IMG/VR virus record: IMGVR_UViG_3300029267_000655
Location: 1-60,552 of that record
Length of the DNA stretch: 60,552 bases
Source: a virus
Reading direction: 5' to 3' (one strand)
Made by a program: the position numbers and the translations under genes. Below are positions 46,995 through 60,552 of the stretch, piece by piece (positions within the stretch are counted from its first letter, which is position 1; each line of letters begins with the position of its first letter). Under the pieces are notes generated by a model that saw only the letters and a list, made by a program, of their open reading frames with translations, searched no databases and had not been told where the DNA came from.

Positions 46995-47779
46995 AGCTTT
47001 CCTCTCTTTCCTGCTCTGTATAGTTGTTGAGCTAGCCTAACACGACCGAATCTAGCAAGACTCTTTCTCAAAGCTTCTACGTCTTCTCCTACTTCGTAGT
47101 GACCGTTGAGATGACTCTTCCACTTACATAGAATCGTCTCAGCCTCTTGCGGTCCTAACGGTCTATCGAACGTAGGTGGAGCTAGGTAGCCGTCTAAACT
47201 CTCTAGAATATGCTCCGTAGCCCATCTATTTCGCTCTCTAACGTCCTCTGTTGCTTCGGATGGGTTTCGATACCTATCCTGAGCTAGAGACGCTCCTACC
47301 TTCGGAGAATCGAATAGGAACACGTCTTCTACCGGAAAGACTACCGGAACACCTAGAACTCTCTCTAGCATGTCGGCTACCTTGAATGAGATCCAAGGTC
47401 CGAACCCTACCCAACGCTGAACGTGTAGCATCACCTCAGTAGATTGAATAGGTTTCTTAACGTCTATCGGTTTGAATAAACCGTCTAAACCTACATCACT
47501 CAGGTAGTTAACAGACTTGGTAGCGTTATCTCCCCTGAAGTGTCTACGCTCAGGACACCTAGGGTACTTCTTAGACTTAGCCGCAGTCATCATAGCGTTC
47601 CAGTAGTCTTTCTTATACGTTATCCAACTGGCAGTACCGCTATGATAAAAACACCAGTAAGCTAGTAACCACTTCCGTAGTTGTACCTTACTCATGTTTG
47701 AGTTAATCAACACCGTATAGACTGGGTCTAAGTCTTCGTTGTCTAGGAGAGACTTACCAAACTCAATCAGTTCTAGCAT
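46988..47779 (-). CDS. Alpha-glutamyl/putrescinyl thymine pyrophosphorylase clade 2-like protein
   Basis: 263 residues. LRKWLLAYWCFYHSGTASWI, the ERRHFRGDNATKSVNYL segment and WVGFGPWISFKVADMLERVL match my memory of the aGPT-PPlase clade 2 family. That helical fold was predicted by Iyer and colleagues to replace the (pyro)phosphate on 5-hydroxymethyl-uracil in DNA with an amine or amino acid. The first genes of such pathways (kinase, second transferase-like protein) are immediately upstream, which strongly supports the call. Confidence 0.78.
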   Translation of the reverse strand: MLELIEFGKSLLDNEDLDPVYTVLINSNMSKVQLRKWLLAYWCFYHSGTASWITYKKDYWNAMMTAAKSKKYPRCPERRHFRGDNATKSVNYLSDVGLDGLFKPIDVKKPIQSTEVMLHVQRWVGFGPWISFKVADMLERVLGVPVVFPVEDVFLFDSPKVGASLAQDRYRNPSEATEDVRERNRWATEHILESLDGYLAPPTFDRPLGPQEAETILCKWKSHLNGHYEVGEDVEALRKSLARFGRVRLAQQLYRAGKRGKLW

Positions 47780-49163
47780 CTTGGACAGGCACCTTTAACT
47801 CGACAAGACGTAATGCTCGACCTTCACCAGCAATAACGTCACCACACCTAGGTTGTCCTGGGTCATCTTCGTTTTCGCTTGCACAATACAAACAACCCGA
47901 AGGTGGGCATTCGTCTACTTCTCGGAATAGTTCATCTGGATTGTCCCTAGTAAATACCGGAACACGCTGCCCGTGGCACTGGTCTGCCGTAGTGTATTCC
48001 CTACCGATACTGACTCCTGTCTTGCTAGTTATGTTTCCTTGTTCGTCTCTTTCGTAACGATACTCGTAGCAAGTGGCGTAGGTTAGTCCGTACCGTTTGG
48101 CGTATTTACTATACATCTCATGGGCTTTTAGTCTGTACTCTTCTTCTACACACCTTTGTCCGCCCATGTTGTCGGTAAACAACTCCTTAAACTTCTCTCC
48201 TCTTTCTCCAAACCTCTTAACCATCCTCTCTTCCATACTGTTAGCCCAAGAGTAACCCGCTTCGACAAACTTAACGATGACGTGGTCTGCTCCTGCCTCA
48301 GCTAGCCTCTTGAATAGCTTAATGATGTCAGCATGAGAGGTTACACCCGGAATAATTGGATTGACTTGAATAGAGACATACACACCTTTGTTCTTGATCC
48401 TTGTGATGTCTTTTAGATGTCCTTTCAAGCTAAGTGCTCCGGGGGAAAGCCTACGAAAGTCCTCTGGAACTGATGTGTTGATAGACTTCTGAGCGTAGCT
48501 ATAGGGATTCTGGGTCATAAGGTCGATAGCCCATTTAGGGTATCTCAACCGACTAAGAAAGAAGATAGGCAAACCAACCTTCACAAACTCTTCAGCAGCG
48601 TATTGGGTGTTATGATAGATACTCTCCAAAGGTAGAAACGGATCAGTAAATGATGAGAAGTAACCCGCTGCTCCACGTCTGACTTTACGTAGCTGTTTCC
48701 TGATCTGTTCTCCGTAGTCCATAGGGACAGTGATAAGTCCGGTGCCACGATAGCCTCTGAACCCGGAGTTAACGTAACAGAAAGCACAACCAACAACACA
48801 CCAACCACCGTAAGGTTCAGTTAGTATAGCTTCAGTGAAACACGGTCTAGGTCTAACATTGTCTGGTTCGTGTAGACCTTTGTACCAACCTTGTAGCTGC
48901 TTTGCTTTATCTATCCGAGTATGTGGGTATGGTTCTAAATAGGCTCTGACTTCCTTCTTGTCTTCGTCTTTAGCGTTTCTGACCATACCCACCCGAACGT
49001 CTCTGACCTTAACTTTACGTCCGAAAACTTCATCATAGACTGTTTTGATTTCAGAAAGATTCTCCCTAGGTTCTGGACGCATGAAATAGTTGTAGACGGT
49101 ATTGGCTGTGTGTTCGTCTTCACCTACAGATTGAGTTGTGATCCAGCTTTGTTCTTGGTCCAT
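47763..49163 (-). CDS. Radical SAM enzyme, probable modified-thymidine remodelling
   Basis: 466 residues. WCVVGCAFCYVNSG holds the CX3CX2C cluster (Cys122, Cys126, Cys129) for the 4Fe-4S/SAM centre, as in spore photoproduct lyase-type enzymes that act on thymine. The barrel continues with GAAGYFSSFTDPFLPLE and VSIQVNPIIPGVTSHADI. A C-terminal Cys cluster (CPPSGCLYCAS, then RCGD) may bind zinc or a second cluster. It starts on the stop of the kinase gene (TAATG). Radical SAM enzymes in related phage clusters isomerise or rearrange amino-acid adducts of thymidine. Confidence 0.85.
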   Translation of the reverse strand: MDQEQSWITTQSVGEDEHTANTVYNYFMRPEPRENLSEIKTVYDEVFGRKVKVRDVRVGMVRNAKDEDKKEVRAYLEPYPHTRIDKAKQLQGWYKGLHEPDNVRPRPCFTEAILTEPYGGWCVVGCAFCYVNSGFRGYRGTGLITVPMDYGEQIRKQLRKVRRGAAGYFSSFTDPFLPLESIYHNTQYAAEEFVKVGLPIFFLSRLRYPKWAIDLMTQNPYSYAQKSINTSVPEDFRRLSPGALSLKGHLKDITRIKNKGVYVSIQVNPIIPGVTSHADIIKLFKRLAEAGADHVIVKFVEAGYSWANSMEERMVKRFGERGEKFKELFTDNMGGQRCVEEEYRLKAHEMYSKYAKRYGLTYATCYEYRYERDEQGNITSKTGVSIGREYTTADQCHGQRVPVFTRDNPDELFREVDECPPSGCLYCASENEDDPGQPRCGDVIAGEGRALRLVELKVPVQDARTD

Positions 49164-53688: not shown

Positions 53689-53734
53689 CATTGCTCTGAC
53701 CGCCATCACAACCTCTCTCAGCAGTAGTAGTAGT

Positions 53735-53806
53735 GCTCCGGGTAGGACTCGAACCTACAACCAAGACATTATGAGTATCCTGCTCTAACCTTTGAGCTAC
53801 CGGAGC
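53735..53806 (-). tRNA. tRNA with anticodon CAT (Met, or Ile2 if lysidine-modified)
   Basis: 72 bases. Acceptor GCTCCGG pairs with CCGGAGC, D stem GCTC/GAGC, anticodon loop CTCATAA, T arm GTAGG-TTCGAGT-CCTAC. The first base pair is G-C, so it is not an initiator. No CCA is encoded. Confidence 0.9.
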
Positions 53807-53813
53807 TAAGTAG

Positions 53814-53887
53814 TACTCCCATCAGGACTCGAACCTGAAACCTACGGTTTAGAAGACCGTTGCTCTATCCTATTGAGCTATGGGAGC
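53814..53887 (-). tRNA. tRNA-Arg, anticodon TCT
   Basis: 74 bases. Acceptor GCTCCCA pairs with TGGGAGT (one G-T pair), anticodon stem ACGGT/ACCGT with loop CTTCTAA, T arm CAGG-TTCGAGT-CCTG region intact. It would read AGA and AGG codons, which are frequent in this phage's coding strands. Confidence 0.9.
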
Positions 53888-53891
53888 CTAG

Positions 53892-53973
53892 TGGTCGTGG
53901 AGGGACTCGAACCCTCATGCCCGAAGGCACTAGAACCTAAATCTAGCGTGTCTGCCAATTTCACCACACGACC
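53892..53973 (-). tRNA. tRNA-Leu, anticodon TAG
   Basis: 82 bases with the long variable arm of class II tRNAs (TGCCTTCGGGCA hairpin). Acceptor GGTCGTG pairs with CACGACC; anticodon stem CTAGA/TCTAG with loop TTTAGGT. It would read CTA and other CTN codons. CTA is very common in this phage (CTAG-rich sequence). Confidence 0.9.
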
Positions 53974-57453: not shown

Positions 57454-58020
57454 CTAGAAAGGGCAGCTAACCTCTTCAAATAAGTCCGAGAGCTGAACTA
57501 TCTGTTGCTGTATAGCTAGTCCTCTCTGACTGATGTCAGCTCTGAGAATAGCCGCAGGGTGTACAATCTCTACCGATGCTGTGTCCCTATACCACTCGTC
57601 GTCTTTGACAATCTTAGGCAACCACTTAGCAGCTAGCTTACCCACACAAACGAACGCACAAGGCTTAGCTACTCTAATGAACTCTAAGAGTCTTTCGGAG
57701 CAGGCTTGAATATGTTCCTTATGAGGTTCGTTGATCTTGTTACCGCCTAGCTCATCTTTAGGTATGCAACAGACCAAGTTAGTAAACGCTAGACGTACTT
57801 CACTCCCTCCAGCTTGTTCGATGGTAACGTCTAGTAACTTACCAGCAGGTCCAACAAATGGTTTACCTAGCACGTCTTCCGATTGACCCGGAGCTTCTCC
57901 GATAAACAACACGTCACAAGGTAGCTTACCTCTAGCTAGCACTGTCTTTCTTCGTACGTCACACAATTCACACTCAGTACAGTCTATCCACCGTTTCTTG
58001 AATGTAGTGTACTTTGACAT
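57454..58020 (-). CDS. Family 4 uracil-DNA glycosylase
   Basis: 188 residues. FIGEAPGQSEDVLGKPFVGPAGKLLD is split between the uracil-binding motifs (GEAPGQ and PFVGPAG), and VEIVHPAAILR carries motif 2 His. Four Cys (DCTECELCD, plus LVCC and QACSER region) fit the 4Fe-4S cluster of family 4. It removes uracil from DNA. A phage whose DNA may carry 5-hydroxymethyl-uracil intermediates must avoid self-damage or use it on dU-containing DNA. Confidence 0.87.
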   Translation of the reverse strand: MSKYTTFKKRWIDCTECELCDVRRKTVLARGKLPCDVLFIGEAPGQSEDVLGKPFVGPAGKLLDVTIEQAGGSEVRLAFTNLVCCIPKDELGGNKINEPHKEHIQACSERLLEFIRVAKPCAFVCVGKLAAKWLPKIVKDDEWYRDTASVEIVHPAAILRADISQRGLAIQQQIVQLSDLFEEVSCPF

Positions 58021-58322
58021 CAGTTACTGTCCTCCATGTATTGTACTGCTCTTTGTAAGTCTTCCTGAGTCTTTAACCCTCTCTCAAGTTCCTCCGCGGT
58101 GTAAGCAAACCCAGGGACTAAGCTATCTGTAGGTAAGTTGGTAGTGATATTATCTACGTCCATACCAAACACTTCAGACAACCTAAACGCTAGCTGACTT
58201 CTTTGCATCAGAACCAACCTACAGAACTCCTCCAACTCCTCTCTAGGTAAGTCTGCTACAAACTGTTTGACCCTAACGATTCTCCTGTTGGACGCTCTGA
58301 TAGCTTCTTCCCTAGGTAACAC
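58020..58322 (-). CDS. Hypothetical helical protein, 100 aa
   Basis: Helical, charged product (REEAIRASNRRIVRVKQFV, then ELEEFCRLVLMQRSQLAF) with no recognised family. It overlaps the UDG gene by one base and the resolvase by 11 bases, so it is probably part of the same repair unit. Confidence 0.65.
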   Translation of the reverse strand: MLPREEAIRASNRRIVRVKQFVADLPREELEEFCRLVLMQRSQLAFRLSEVFGMDVDNITTNLPTDSLVPGFAYTAEELERGLKTQEDLQRAVQYMEDSN

Positions 58323-58782
58323 TGTTCAATCTCCTTCCGTATTCAGCGATCAACAAAGCATCACAAGTGGATTTGGTTATCTTATCATAGGGAAACAACT
58401 GCTCTGCTTTGTTGAGTAATCGGGTCTTGAATTGTGTCTTGGTCTCGTTAGGTTTCCTAGCGACTACACCTAAACTCTTCTGCCAAGTCCTAGGTGTAAC
58501 GTATTCATAGGAGAATCTACTAGCGGTGAGAGCCATCTGTAGCATTCCGTAGTTCTCACCAAACGTGAACATAGACTTTACACCTTGACCCGGCATAGAG
58601 TGAACTTTCTCTATGTAGGCTCTAGTCCTATAACCGTGTTCCGTTGCAACCATATCTAACCACTCAAAGATTCCTTTGACGGTTTTAGGCATAGCTACAG
58701 CATCCCAAGACTGATCAGGATAGATAACTGCTAGTCCTCCGGTCTTACCTGGATCAATACCTATAAATGTGTCTTTGCTCAT
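58312..58782 (-). CDS. RuvC-like Holliday junction resolvase
   Basis: 156 residues from the ATG at 58782 (GGAGAG upstream, ATGA overlap). TFIGIDPGKTGGLAVI carries the first catalytic Asp, AYIEKVHSMPGQGVKSMF the Glu, and STCDALLIAEYGRR the C-terminal acid. This matches phage RuvC-type resolvases that cut branched DNA before packaging. Confidence 0.87.
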   Translation of the reverse strand: MSKDTFIGIDPGKTGGLAVIYPDQSWDAVAMPKTVKGIFEWLDMVATEHGYRTRAYIEKVHSMPGQGVKSMFTFGENYGMLQMALTASRFSYEYVTPRTWQKSLGVVARKPNETKTQFKTRLLNKAEQLFPYDKITKSTCDALLIAEYGRRLNSVT

Positions 58783-58982
58783 CGAACTCTCTCCATCTTT
58801 CCGAAGCAAGTTATGCTCACACTGTTTTCAACACAGCTTATGGTGACGTTGTATCTACCTGACTGAGCTTTGTTGCGGACCTGTTGCATCATGGATTTGA
58901 TAGTACAGTCGAAGTCTACTCCTTGAACCAGGTTGGTCGTCTTACCCTTCTTGAAGATACTTTTCCAGTTGTACTTACTCAT
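58779..58982 (-). CDS. Hypothetical protein, 67 aa
   Basis: Basic small protein (KYNWKSIFKKGKTTNLVQGV, ending ITCFGKMERVR), coupled at both ends to the HNH-like and RuvC-like genes by four-base overlaps. No recognised domain. Confidence 0.65.
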   Translation of the reverse strand: MSKYNWKSIFKKGKTTNLVQGVDFDCTIKSMMQQVRNKAQSGRYNVTISCVENSVSITCFGKMERVR

Positions 58983-59269
58983 CCTCTCCCTCTCTTCTTA
59001 ACCTTTGTCAACTTCATGTGTTCTGGGTTGATACAGTTAGGAGTACCGCAGATAGACTTAACTGACCTGTCTTTCATCAATCGTTTTTCTGAAGGAGAGG
59101 CTGTGAAGTGATAGAACATCAGTCGTCTGACCATGTACCTAGTACCGTCTATGATCATCGTAGCGTAGCCAGCAGCAGACGTAGTACCGAACCAACTCCA
59201 GCAACCTGTCAAACCGACCTTGTAGTTACCTTCAATACGTCTCTCTAGTGTCTCTTTGGTTACTTTCAA
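58979..59269 (-). CDS. HNH_3-type homing endonuclease-like protein
   Basis: About 96 residues from a TTG at 59269 with AGGAG eight bases upstream; the frame extends to 59323 without a better start. GCWSWFGTTSAAGYATM, YMVRRLMFYHFTASP and ICGTPNCINPEHMKL fit the HNH_3 fold common in phages. The His usual before the first Cys pair is replaced (VKSICG), so activity may be lost. It is the last gene before the GC-rich cassette island. Confidence 0.7.
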   Translation of the reverse strand: MKVTKETLERRIEGNYKVGLTGCWSWFGTTSAAGYATMIIDGTRYMVRRLMFYHFTASPSEKRLMKDRSVKSICGTPNCINPEHMKLTKVKKRGRG

Positions 59270-59388
59270 CTTACTACTCCTAACAAGAACAACAAACCGA
59301 CTACAGGTAATACAACCAACCAAGCGAACAGACCTAAGTAGACACCAATCAACATCAGGAAGTAGATAGTGTCACTCCTGTCGTCACG

Positions 59389-59790
59389 TCACACCCTCTC
59401 GCCCCGCAACATCGCCACGATATCCCGGCCAAGGCTCTGCCAGCACAAAATGCTAAGCGGCACGCGCTGAACCTCTACCAATAACACGCGGCCACTGTGC
59501 TCATGCGACGCCTCGATGAATTGCGTTTCCGGCTGCCACTCGAATCGCCAGCCCTCGCTGCGAGCGTGCTCGTAGCGGTTCGGTCGCCGATGCTCCCAGT
59601 GGTCGACTACGTCGTCAAACGTGATGTCGAAATCGCGCCCGTCATTGTGCTCGCCACGCGGATCGCACACCGTCAGCCTCCGCTGGTCAGTGACCACGCC
59701 CCGAACCAGCATGATCATGTCGTTGCCGATGTCGACCAAATCGTCCGGCTCATAACTAGCCGATGCTGCGGTCTCATTCTCGTTGCTCAT
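59389..59790 (-). CDS. Cassette ORF C, 133 aa
   Basis: ATG at 59790 with GAGGATGGT upstream. Acidic, Trp/Arg-containing protein (DLVDIGNDMIMLVRGVV, DHWEHRRPNRYEHARSEGW, VLLVEVQRVPLSILCW). No family recognised. It is GC-rich like environmental integron cassettes and unlike the phage genes to its left. Confidence 0.65.
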   Translation of the reverse strand: MSNENETAASASYEPDDLVDIGNDMIMLVRGVVTDQRRLTVCDPRGEHNDGRDFDITFDDVVDHWEHRRPNRYEHARSEGWRFEWQPETQFIEASHEHSGRVLLVEVQRVPLSILCWQSLGRDIVAMLRGERV

Positions 59791-59827
59791 ACCATCCTCG
59801 CTTTCTGTTCGCCGCTGATCGCTGACG

Positions 59828-60040
59828 TTATCCGCCAGCTTCTTGACGAAAGCGTTCCCATTGCGCCACCATAAAATCCGCCAGTTCGTTTCTCTCCTCA
59901 GCCGTCAACCGTCGAGGGTGAATCAATTCCGCGTCGTATCCTCCGTAGACCATTCCCCCAGCAATCCCGATAATCCCATGGTTTGCGTATTCGTCTCGCC
60001 CGGTCGTTTCAAACGTCACTGTGTCGCCGTTTATTTTCAT
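59828..60040 (-). CDS. Cassette ORF B, 70 aa
   Basis: ATG at 60040 (MKINGDTVTFETTGRDEY), short product with GIIGIAGGMVYGGYDAELIH and a helical end (LTAEERNELADFMVAQWERF). The TAA stop lies in GCGGATAAC, as for ORF A. It starts within 15 bases of the attC-like repeat, the usual compact layout of gene cassettes. Function unknown. Confidence 0.6.
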   Translation of the reverse strand: MKINGDTVTFETTGRDEYANHGIIGIAGGMVYGGYDAELIHPRRLTAEERNELADFMVAQWERFRQEAGG

Positions 60041-60053
60041 TTTGCACCAAAGA

Positions 60054-60147
60054 ACGGATAACAAGGCGTTGCACGGGAGCCGCCGGCAACGCGGGTTTTG
60101 AAATCAATGTCGTTCACGGCGGCCCCGTGAACTTGGCCGTTATCCGT
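60054..60147. repeat. attC-like structured repeat, copy B
   Basis: 94 bp between ORFs A and B. The outer ends ACGGATAAC and GTTATCCGT are a perfect 9-bp inverted repeat. Inside are GCGTTGC/GCAACGC and GTTCACGG/CCGTGAAC hairpins, together giving a three-way fold in single strands. Compared with copy A the loop of the second hairpin differs while the stem is kept. Single-strand folding with AAC/GTT ends is the hallmark of attC, but the core is not a textbook match. Confidence 0.6.
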
Positions 60148-60552
60148 CGCATTCTTTACAAATTGCATCCGTGCAACCATGTGATGCCTTTCGGTGTTCG
60201 CGGTTGAGCCTAGTTCTACATGCCGCCAACCTAACCAGAAGCTCCCTGCAAGCATCGGCAAGATCAATAACCGTCTGATGGCAGCTCTCTCCTGATTCAA
60301 CCCACTCTGGCGTAATGCGCCGCAACGCTTCGTGCACCTCACGATCCTGACCGTCGCAAAATACTGTCATCTCCACCCCGTCGCGTATCTCAACCCGAGT
60401 ACCAATTGACGGATAACAAGGCGTTGCACGGGAGCCGCCGGCAACGCGGGTTTTGAAATCAATGTCGTTCACGGTGCCGCCGTGAACTTGGCCGTTATGC
60501 CTCAAACTTGGGCAGGCGGTCCCCCACTCAACACCCGGTTTAAGTCTGACCC
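60140..60552 (-). CDS. Cassette ORF A, 3' part of the gene that crosses the joint
   Basis: In the circular molecule this frame is fused to the phage ORF starting at 337. Inside the window it reads through the repeat (NGQVHGGTVNDIDFKTRVAG) and continues IRDGVEMTVFCDGQDREVHE to a Cys-containing end (TDAICKECDG). Without the fusion, the cassette gene would start at a GTG or ATG near 60372-60390 and encode about 80 residues. The TAA stop is part of the GGATAAC of copy B. Function unknown. Confidence 0.55.
   Translation of the reverse strand, partial: VRLKPGVEWGTACPSLRHNGQVHGGTVNDIDFKTRVAGGSRATPCYPSIGTRVEIRDGVEMTVFCDGQDREVHEALRRITPEWVESGESCHQTVIDLADACRELLVRLAACRTRLNREHRKASHGCTDAICKECDG
60409..60552. 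repeat. 144-bp terminal direct repeat identical to 1-144
   Basis: The last 144 bases equal the first 144 bases exactly. This shows a circular or circularly permuted genome cut at an arbitrary point, or a short terminal redundancy. Because the ends fall inside a coding frame and a structured repeat rather than beside the terminase genes, an assembly overlap is more likely than a true phage terminus. Confidence 0.9.

Follow-up and report, generated by a model that had tools for sequence, protein, structure and literature searches.

A cluster of predicted attC sites with antisense cassette genes in a phage genome

A GC-rich island at the end of a phage record

We examined the IMG/VR record IMGVR_UViG_3300029267_000655 (60,552 bases; this whole stretch is "the window"), and in particular a GC-rich island at its right end. 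An initial annotation had described this island as integron-like gene cassettes carried by a phage. The first and last 144 bases of the record are identical, so the record closes to a 60,408-base circle. Because of this overlap, the island extends past the end of the record, across the circular join to about base 86, and its rightmost predicted attC site (attC0) is present at both 60408-60502 and 1-94. (The overlapping bases, 1-144 and 60409-60552, span attC0.) The island has these features, where R1 is a covariance model for attC sites and L086 is another contig, with terminase genes:

59381-59388, no strand: left junction; similarity to the L086 cassette ends at 59385, with phage DNA to the left
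59389-59790, minus: gene 3, 133 amino acids, antisense to attC; 87% identical to the L086 cassette, with purifying selection in the minus-strand frame
59747-59835, plus: attC2, degenerate, overlapping the start of gene 3; R1 22.2 bits, E = 3.2e-4; predicted crossover 59827|59828
59828-60040, minus: gene 2, about 70 amino acids, antisense to attC; stop codon within the R' box of attC2
60053-60147, plus (canonical top strand): attC1, full-length; R1 88.1 bits, E = 2.9e-24; predicted crossover 60139|60140
60140-60376, minus: gene 1, about 76 amino acids, antisense to attC; stop codon TAA within the R' box of attC1
60408-60502 (= 1-94), plus: attC0, at the right junction with phage DNA; R1 68.6 bits, E = 2.4e-18; predicted crossover 60494|60495 (= 86|87)
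1-94, plus: second copy of attC0, due to the 144-base overlap (R1 match and terminal overlap)

The three short, GC-rich open reading frames (ORFs) of the initial annotation are thus present, all on the minus strand, and the observation of a cassette array is confirmed. The left border at 59385, which was also proposed initially, is exact: similarity to the L086 cassette block ends there, and this coincides with a rise in GC content from about 0.42 to 0.6. The right edge had been placed around base 110 and needs to be moved. The junction between the island and the phage is at the attC0 crossover, base 86/87.

The repeats are predicted attC sites of a planctomycete family

R1 was trained on 19 attC-like sequences from other contigs only, with the window excluded. 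An attC covariance search had been suggested as a check on the array, and it was positive: R1 identified three attC sites within 756 nt, all on the plus strand, and two of them are strong. The strand call leaves no doubt: at the full-length sites, the two strands score tens of bits apart. The two stronger sites lie in a 103-nt repeat (60046-60148 and 60401-60503, 92% identical). In DNA folding, the AAC/GTT-ended hairpin of attC1 had z-scores of -4.6 and -5.4, and none of 200 shuffles was as good. attC1 is predicted to fold into a single long hairpin, one arm of which has unpaired bases. The folding of attC0 is weaker (z about -2), and its upper stem is mutated. The inverted AAC/GTT ends and internal hairpins that had been noticed initially are therefore upheld by the repeat, folding, and covariance results, and we consider the repeats to be predicted attC sites.

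We then asked which attC family these sites belong to. Planctomycete attC sites are distinctive enough for a taxon-specific model (PMC8352920). At E ≤ 1e-5, R1 had matches in 69 of 80 genomes of Pirellulaceae (the Mariniblastus family), often with dozens of sites per genome. At 1e-12, it matched 59 of the 80 Pirellulaceae genomes versus none of 100 genomes from the phylum of a Thiosymbion metagenome-assembled genome. A 27-nt attC pattern had no match in genome contigs; a shorter pattern had 16 loci, of which about ten are from Planctomycetota. Among Planctomycetota genomes with such sites, two have integron integrases that score above the curated cut-off. As judged by the model, the attC family of the window is planctomycete, and the link to planctomycete cassettes that was originally made holds. 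As a clue to the host, the family suggests a planctomycete. This part of the original claim remains circumstantial.

Could these repeats be something other than attC sites, such as a phage-specific hairpin with a terminator- or packaging-like role? There is no integrase nearby, hairpins can have other roles, and an Rfam scan of the island gave a chance hit only, with no match to an attC family. But R1 also hits genuine Pirellulaceae arrays, in which genes lie between the sites, and two of the genomes with such sites carry integron integrases, as described above. Also, the sister phages described below differ from one another in whole cassettes, and the breakpoints are at G|TT. We consider a lookalike hairpin to be highly improbable.

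The cassette genes are antisense to attC

Genes 1 and 2 both stop at the TAA of GGATAAC, the repeat end in which the initial annotation had noticed embedded stop codons. This TAA is the first three bases past the predicted G|TT crossover (60139|60140 and 59827|59828). All three genes run antisense to attC and in the same direction as the flanking phage genes.

In the canonical orientation, a cassette gene is sense to its attC site. We found this orientation in Pirellulaceae, where 118 genes are sense and 13 are antisense (median attC-to-attC spacing 579 nt), and not in the window or in phages. In phage arrays, 36 genes are antisense and 3 are sense (or 46 to 3 in a looser, end-anchored count), and the median spacing is 378 nt; the sharing of some cassettes means that these counts are not independent, yet the difference is very large. 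Of the 36 antisense ORFs, 29 terminate within 14 nt of the end of the R' box. We also considered whether the orientation of planctomycete attC sites had been misread. This is ruled out, as bacterial arrays are 118:13 sense under the same model. The array in the window has the phage-type antisense polarity, though the strand of gene 2 is unclear by length alone.

Pfam and PADLOC searches with the three cassette proteins found nothing above chance. The AlphaFold model of gene 3 had a pLDDT of 48 and was not used for a fold search. The genes may have accessory or host-takeover functions.

The cassette of gene 3 is shared with another phage contig

Gene 3 and attC2 recur in L086 at 87% DNA identity, so attC2, although degenerate, is conserved there. 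The L086 cassette lies beside the terminase genes of that contig. Beyond attC, L086 has no other similarity to the phage in the window. The common block extends from the R' box of attC2 to 59385. Between the two copies, 31 of the 49 differences are at third codon positions of the minus-strand frame, which shows that the antisense frame is the gene. By codon, 28 differences are synonymous and 17 are nonsynonymous, and 117 of 134 positions are identical.

In L086, the cassette goes on beyond this point, with a small ORF before the next attC site. The left junction in the window is not at G|TT. Together these imply that the window's copy was truncated or joined there. (The small ORF in L086, at about 793-890 on the plus strand, encodes about 30 amino acids, VTCRLRVCCDTVYDDESDYRAHRAAAHGDG, with a C2H2-like pattern, and overlaps the stop codon of the gene 3 homolog. 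This ORF is lost at the window's left junction.)

These results bear on another explanation, which is that the island came at random from the chromosomal integron of a host, by illegitimate recombination, and is unrelated to any phage pool. In favor of this, the attC family is typical of Pirellulaceae, and no crossover point coincides with the left edge. But the antisense genes and the short spacing fit phage arrays (378 nt) better than bacterial ones (579 nt), and the only relative of gene 3 that we found is in a phage contig, L086. The initial annotation had proposed a search of the cassette ORFs against planctomycete genomes; for the one ORF searched, gene 3, there was no match in 294 genomes. 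A random host piece is unlikely. Capture by a phage had been proposed as a route for cassette movement. Sharing between phages, as with L086, supports such a route, with the evidence covering movement from phage to phage.

The island is flanked by phage genes and lacks an integrase

The window encodes a large terminase (TerL), portal, head morphogenesis, and tape measure proteins, a DNA polymerase, and a primase, as well as a Sak4-type annealing protein, an exonuclease, uracil-DNA glycosylase (UDG), a RuvC-like resolvase, thymidylate synthase, and photolyase. So, this is a phage genome with packaging, head, and tail genes on the same contig as the island. The gene content suits a lytic siphovirus, which the phage probably is, without being proof. 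In TerL or the DNA polymerase, the closest isolates reach only about 25% identity, so these proteins do not allow a host call. A search of the whole 60.5-kb record for tyrosine recombinases or integron integrases (PF00589) found none.

The features beside the island are:

58312-58809, minus: RuvC-like resolvase, the conserved left-flank marker (profile match and gene order in relatives)
58979-59323, minus: HNH endonuclease-like gene, left of the island (PHROG 1872 and others)
98-337, minus: phage ORF whose frame continues into attC0 and gene 1 (weak relative L036)
418-389, minus: promoter-like site upstream of this ORF (consensus match only)
633-2861, plus: ParB-like protein, the conserved right-flank marker (Pyr_excise by Pfam; the ParB name is by inference)

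About 15 relatives in IMG/VR have exonuclease, UDG, and RuvC-like genes on one side of a short variable spacer and a divergent ParB-like gene (with a helicase, where covered) on the other. The window keeps this order, and the island occupies the spacer between the RuvC-like and ParB-like genes. Because the flanks match the order in the relatives, the two ends of the contig do belong next to each other, and the island has phage genes on either side. (One relative, G013, closes with an overlap of 127 bases that lies in this spacer too.) A search of these relatives for attC sites found none.

The gene order also speaks to the possibility of a chimeric assembly, in which repeats or contig ends led to a false join between planctomycete cassette DNA and an unrelated phage. 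The contig ends do overlap within attC0, a repeat that could mislead an assembler, and the GC content of the island is unlike that of the phage. But two wrong joins would have to restore the right phage order, with flanks that adjoin in about 15 relatives. Also, the left junction falls where the cassette block that also occurs in another phage contig ends, the orientation of the genes is phage-type rather than bacterial-type, and several phage contigs of 22-50 kb hold such arrays internally. Overall, a chimera seems quite improbable.

Several other features of this genome are described here for completeness. The reading frame of the phage ORF at 337-98 stays open through attC0 into gene 1 (98-337, then 60550-60140, both minus). 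This would give about 200 amino acids in all, a possible fusion protein with a translated attC. The ParB-like protein has an N-terminal pyrimidine-dimer DNA glycosylase domain, and with the photolyase (47763-49163, minus) and UDG (57454-58020, minus), the phage has an unusually rich set of genes for UV and uracil repair. Three tandem tRNA genes (Met, Arg, and Leu) are at 53733-53973 (minus).

A sister lineage of phages exchanges cassettes at G|TT

A second group of phage contigs (L074, L075, L077, L078, L080, L083, and L084) is linked by common backbone or array-edge sequence and is unrelated to the phage in the window outside of attC. Six of these sister contigs have sizeable arrays, with 6-12 attC sites each. 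Otherwise similar genomes differ by whole cassettes, and the shared cassettes have both ends mostly 0-5 nt from G|TT. For instance, L075 and L077 share a block of 1,425 nt at 99.6% identity. (A cassette with a DNA methyltransferase, PHROG 67, occurs in two sister phages, in the region of L075:10465-11154 and at L018:9180-9869, at about 99.6% identity and in different array contexts.)

At the leading edge of the array, all seven contigs have the conserved core GATAATTCAAAG|TT:

L074: 3474, minus
L075: 13585, minus
L077: 7984, minus
L078: 14359, plus
L080: 11336, minus
L083: 2756, minus
L084: 2226, plus

We take the layout of this core to be like that of CCTAAAACAAAG|TTAGG in attI1, with inverted boxes 7 nt apart and ending in CAAAG. 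In many cases a GATATC repeat and a GC-rich hairpin come before the core. In the sister contigs that we inspected, the genes in the array run toward the core and converge with the tail genes. Since the array genes are directed at the core, the promoter-distal end would be where new cassettes come in. No PF00589 domain or integron integrase was found in the sister records, several of which are partial. The simplest reading is that the sister phages have their own receiving site and cassette pool, which would be run by a host's integrase. At the array edges of the window, a search for the core found none. As the attI-like core is lacking, we read the window's island as a small piece of the phage cassette pool that has partly decayed.

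Discussion

The island has cassettes bounded by attC sites, as integrons do, but neither intI nor attI was found. The initial interpretation as a cassette array carried by a phage is supported. With at least two close attC sites and no integron integrase in the 60.5-kb record, the island is a CALIN, or a cluster of attC sites without an integrase, and not an integron. Taken together, we think it very likely that this is a three-site CALIN, left over from an integron cassette array, in a probably lytic siphovirus, with cassettes from a phage pool.

Several points weigh against this. The relatives have about 45-58% protein identity, and none is a near-identical phage whose site is empty. The left junction is not at G|TT, attC0 and attC2 are imperfect sites, no integrase is present, and the recombination activity of the sites is predicted only. 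By ORF length alone, the strand of gene 2 is ambiguous, as there is a 72-amino-acid ORF on the plus strand. Gene 1 (P0003) had no relative in the viral contigs searched. Because gene 3 (P0001) was not found in the 294 planctomycete genomes, a bacterial source is unproven.

We propose that a pool of cassettes circulates among planctomycete-associated phages, with each cassette carrying a small gene that is antisense to attC and ends in the R' box. The sites and the cargo would come from the phage, as would transcription, running leftward from the phage operon that flanks the island, and a host integron integrase would most likely provide recombination at G|TT.

CALINs in phages are already known. 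Qi et al. (2023, PMC9892861) reported them in the virulent phages TJE1, P12002L, and PH101, and most of the attC sites that they tested recombine with attI1. Like the window, those phages have at least two attC sites, small ORFs of unknown function, and no intI, so our phage is a further case. The CALINs of Qi et al. are in phages of Tetrasphaera, Polaribacter, and Pseudoalteromonas, with the typical gene orientation in TJE1 and PH101 (PMC9892861), while the window has planctomycete-type attC sites, antisense genes, and a cassette in common with another phage. Island DNA had no match in phage and plasmid collections (50,697 records in the phage set). The sedentary chromosomal integrons of Pirellulaceae have the same attC family by the covariance model, but they have sense-oriented genes and longer cassettes (118:13 and 579 nt, as above), and two of the genomes have intI. 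Treponema-type atypical integrons also depart from the gene polarity that integrons usually have (PMC3607928); the window differs in that it lacks intI and its genes are inverted relative to attC itself. In PMC9892861 and the literature searched, which was covered in part, we did not find phage attC sites of planctomycete type, inverted polarity, exact exchange of cassettes between phages, or an attI-like core without an integrase in phages.

A broader reading is that planctomycete-associated phages have an integron-like platform of their own, with an attI-like site, compact inverted cassettes, no integrase, and a borrowed host IntI that shuffles the cassettes from phage to phage. This may well be true, and may equally well not be. 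The same even judgment applies jointly to its further details, namely that GATAATTCAAAG|TT is at the promoter-distal end of the operon and that the window is a fragment in a separate lineage. If this reading is true, then inverted cassettes would be silent in a host's integron and the pool would stay phage-specific.

Integrons are usually treated as platforms for gene capture by bacteria. If the reversed-polarity arrays, the precise swaps, and the attI-like core are what they appear to be, then phages run a parallel cassette economy on a borrowed enzyme. Testable hypotheses would follow about the way in which lytic phages assort small accessory genes, and about whether phages, and not just their hosts, are served by integrons.
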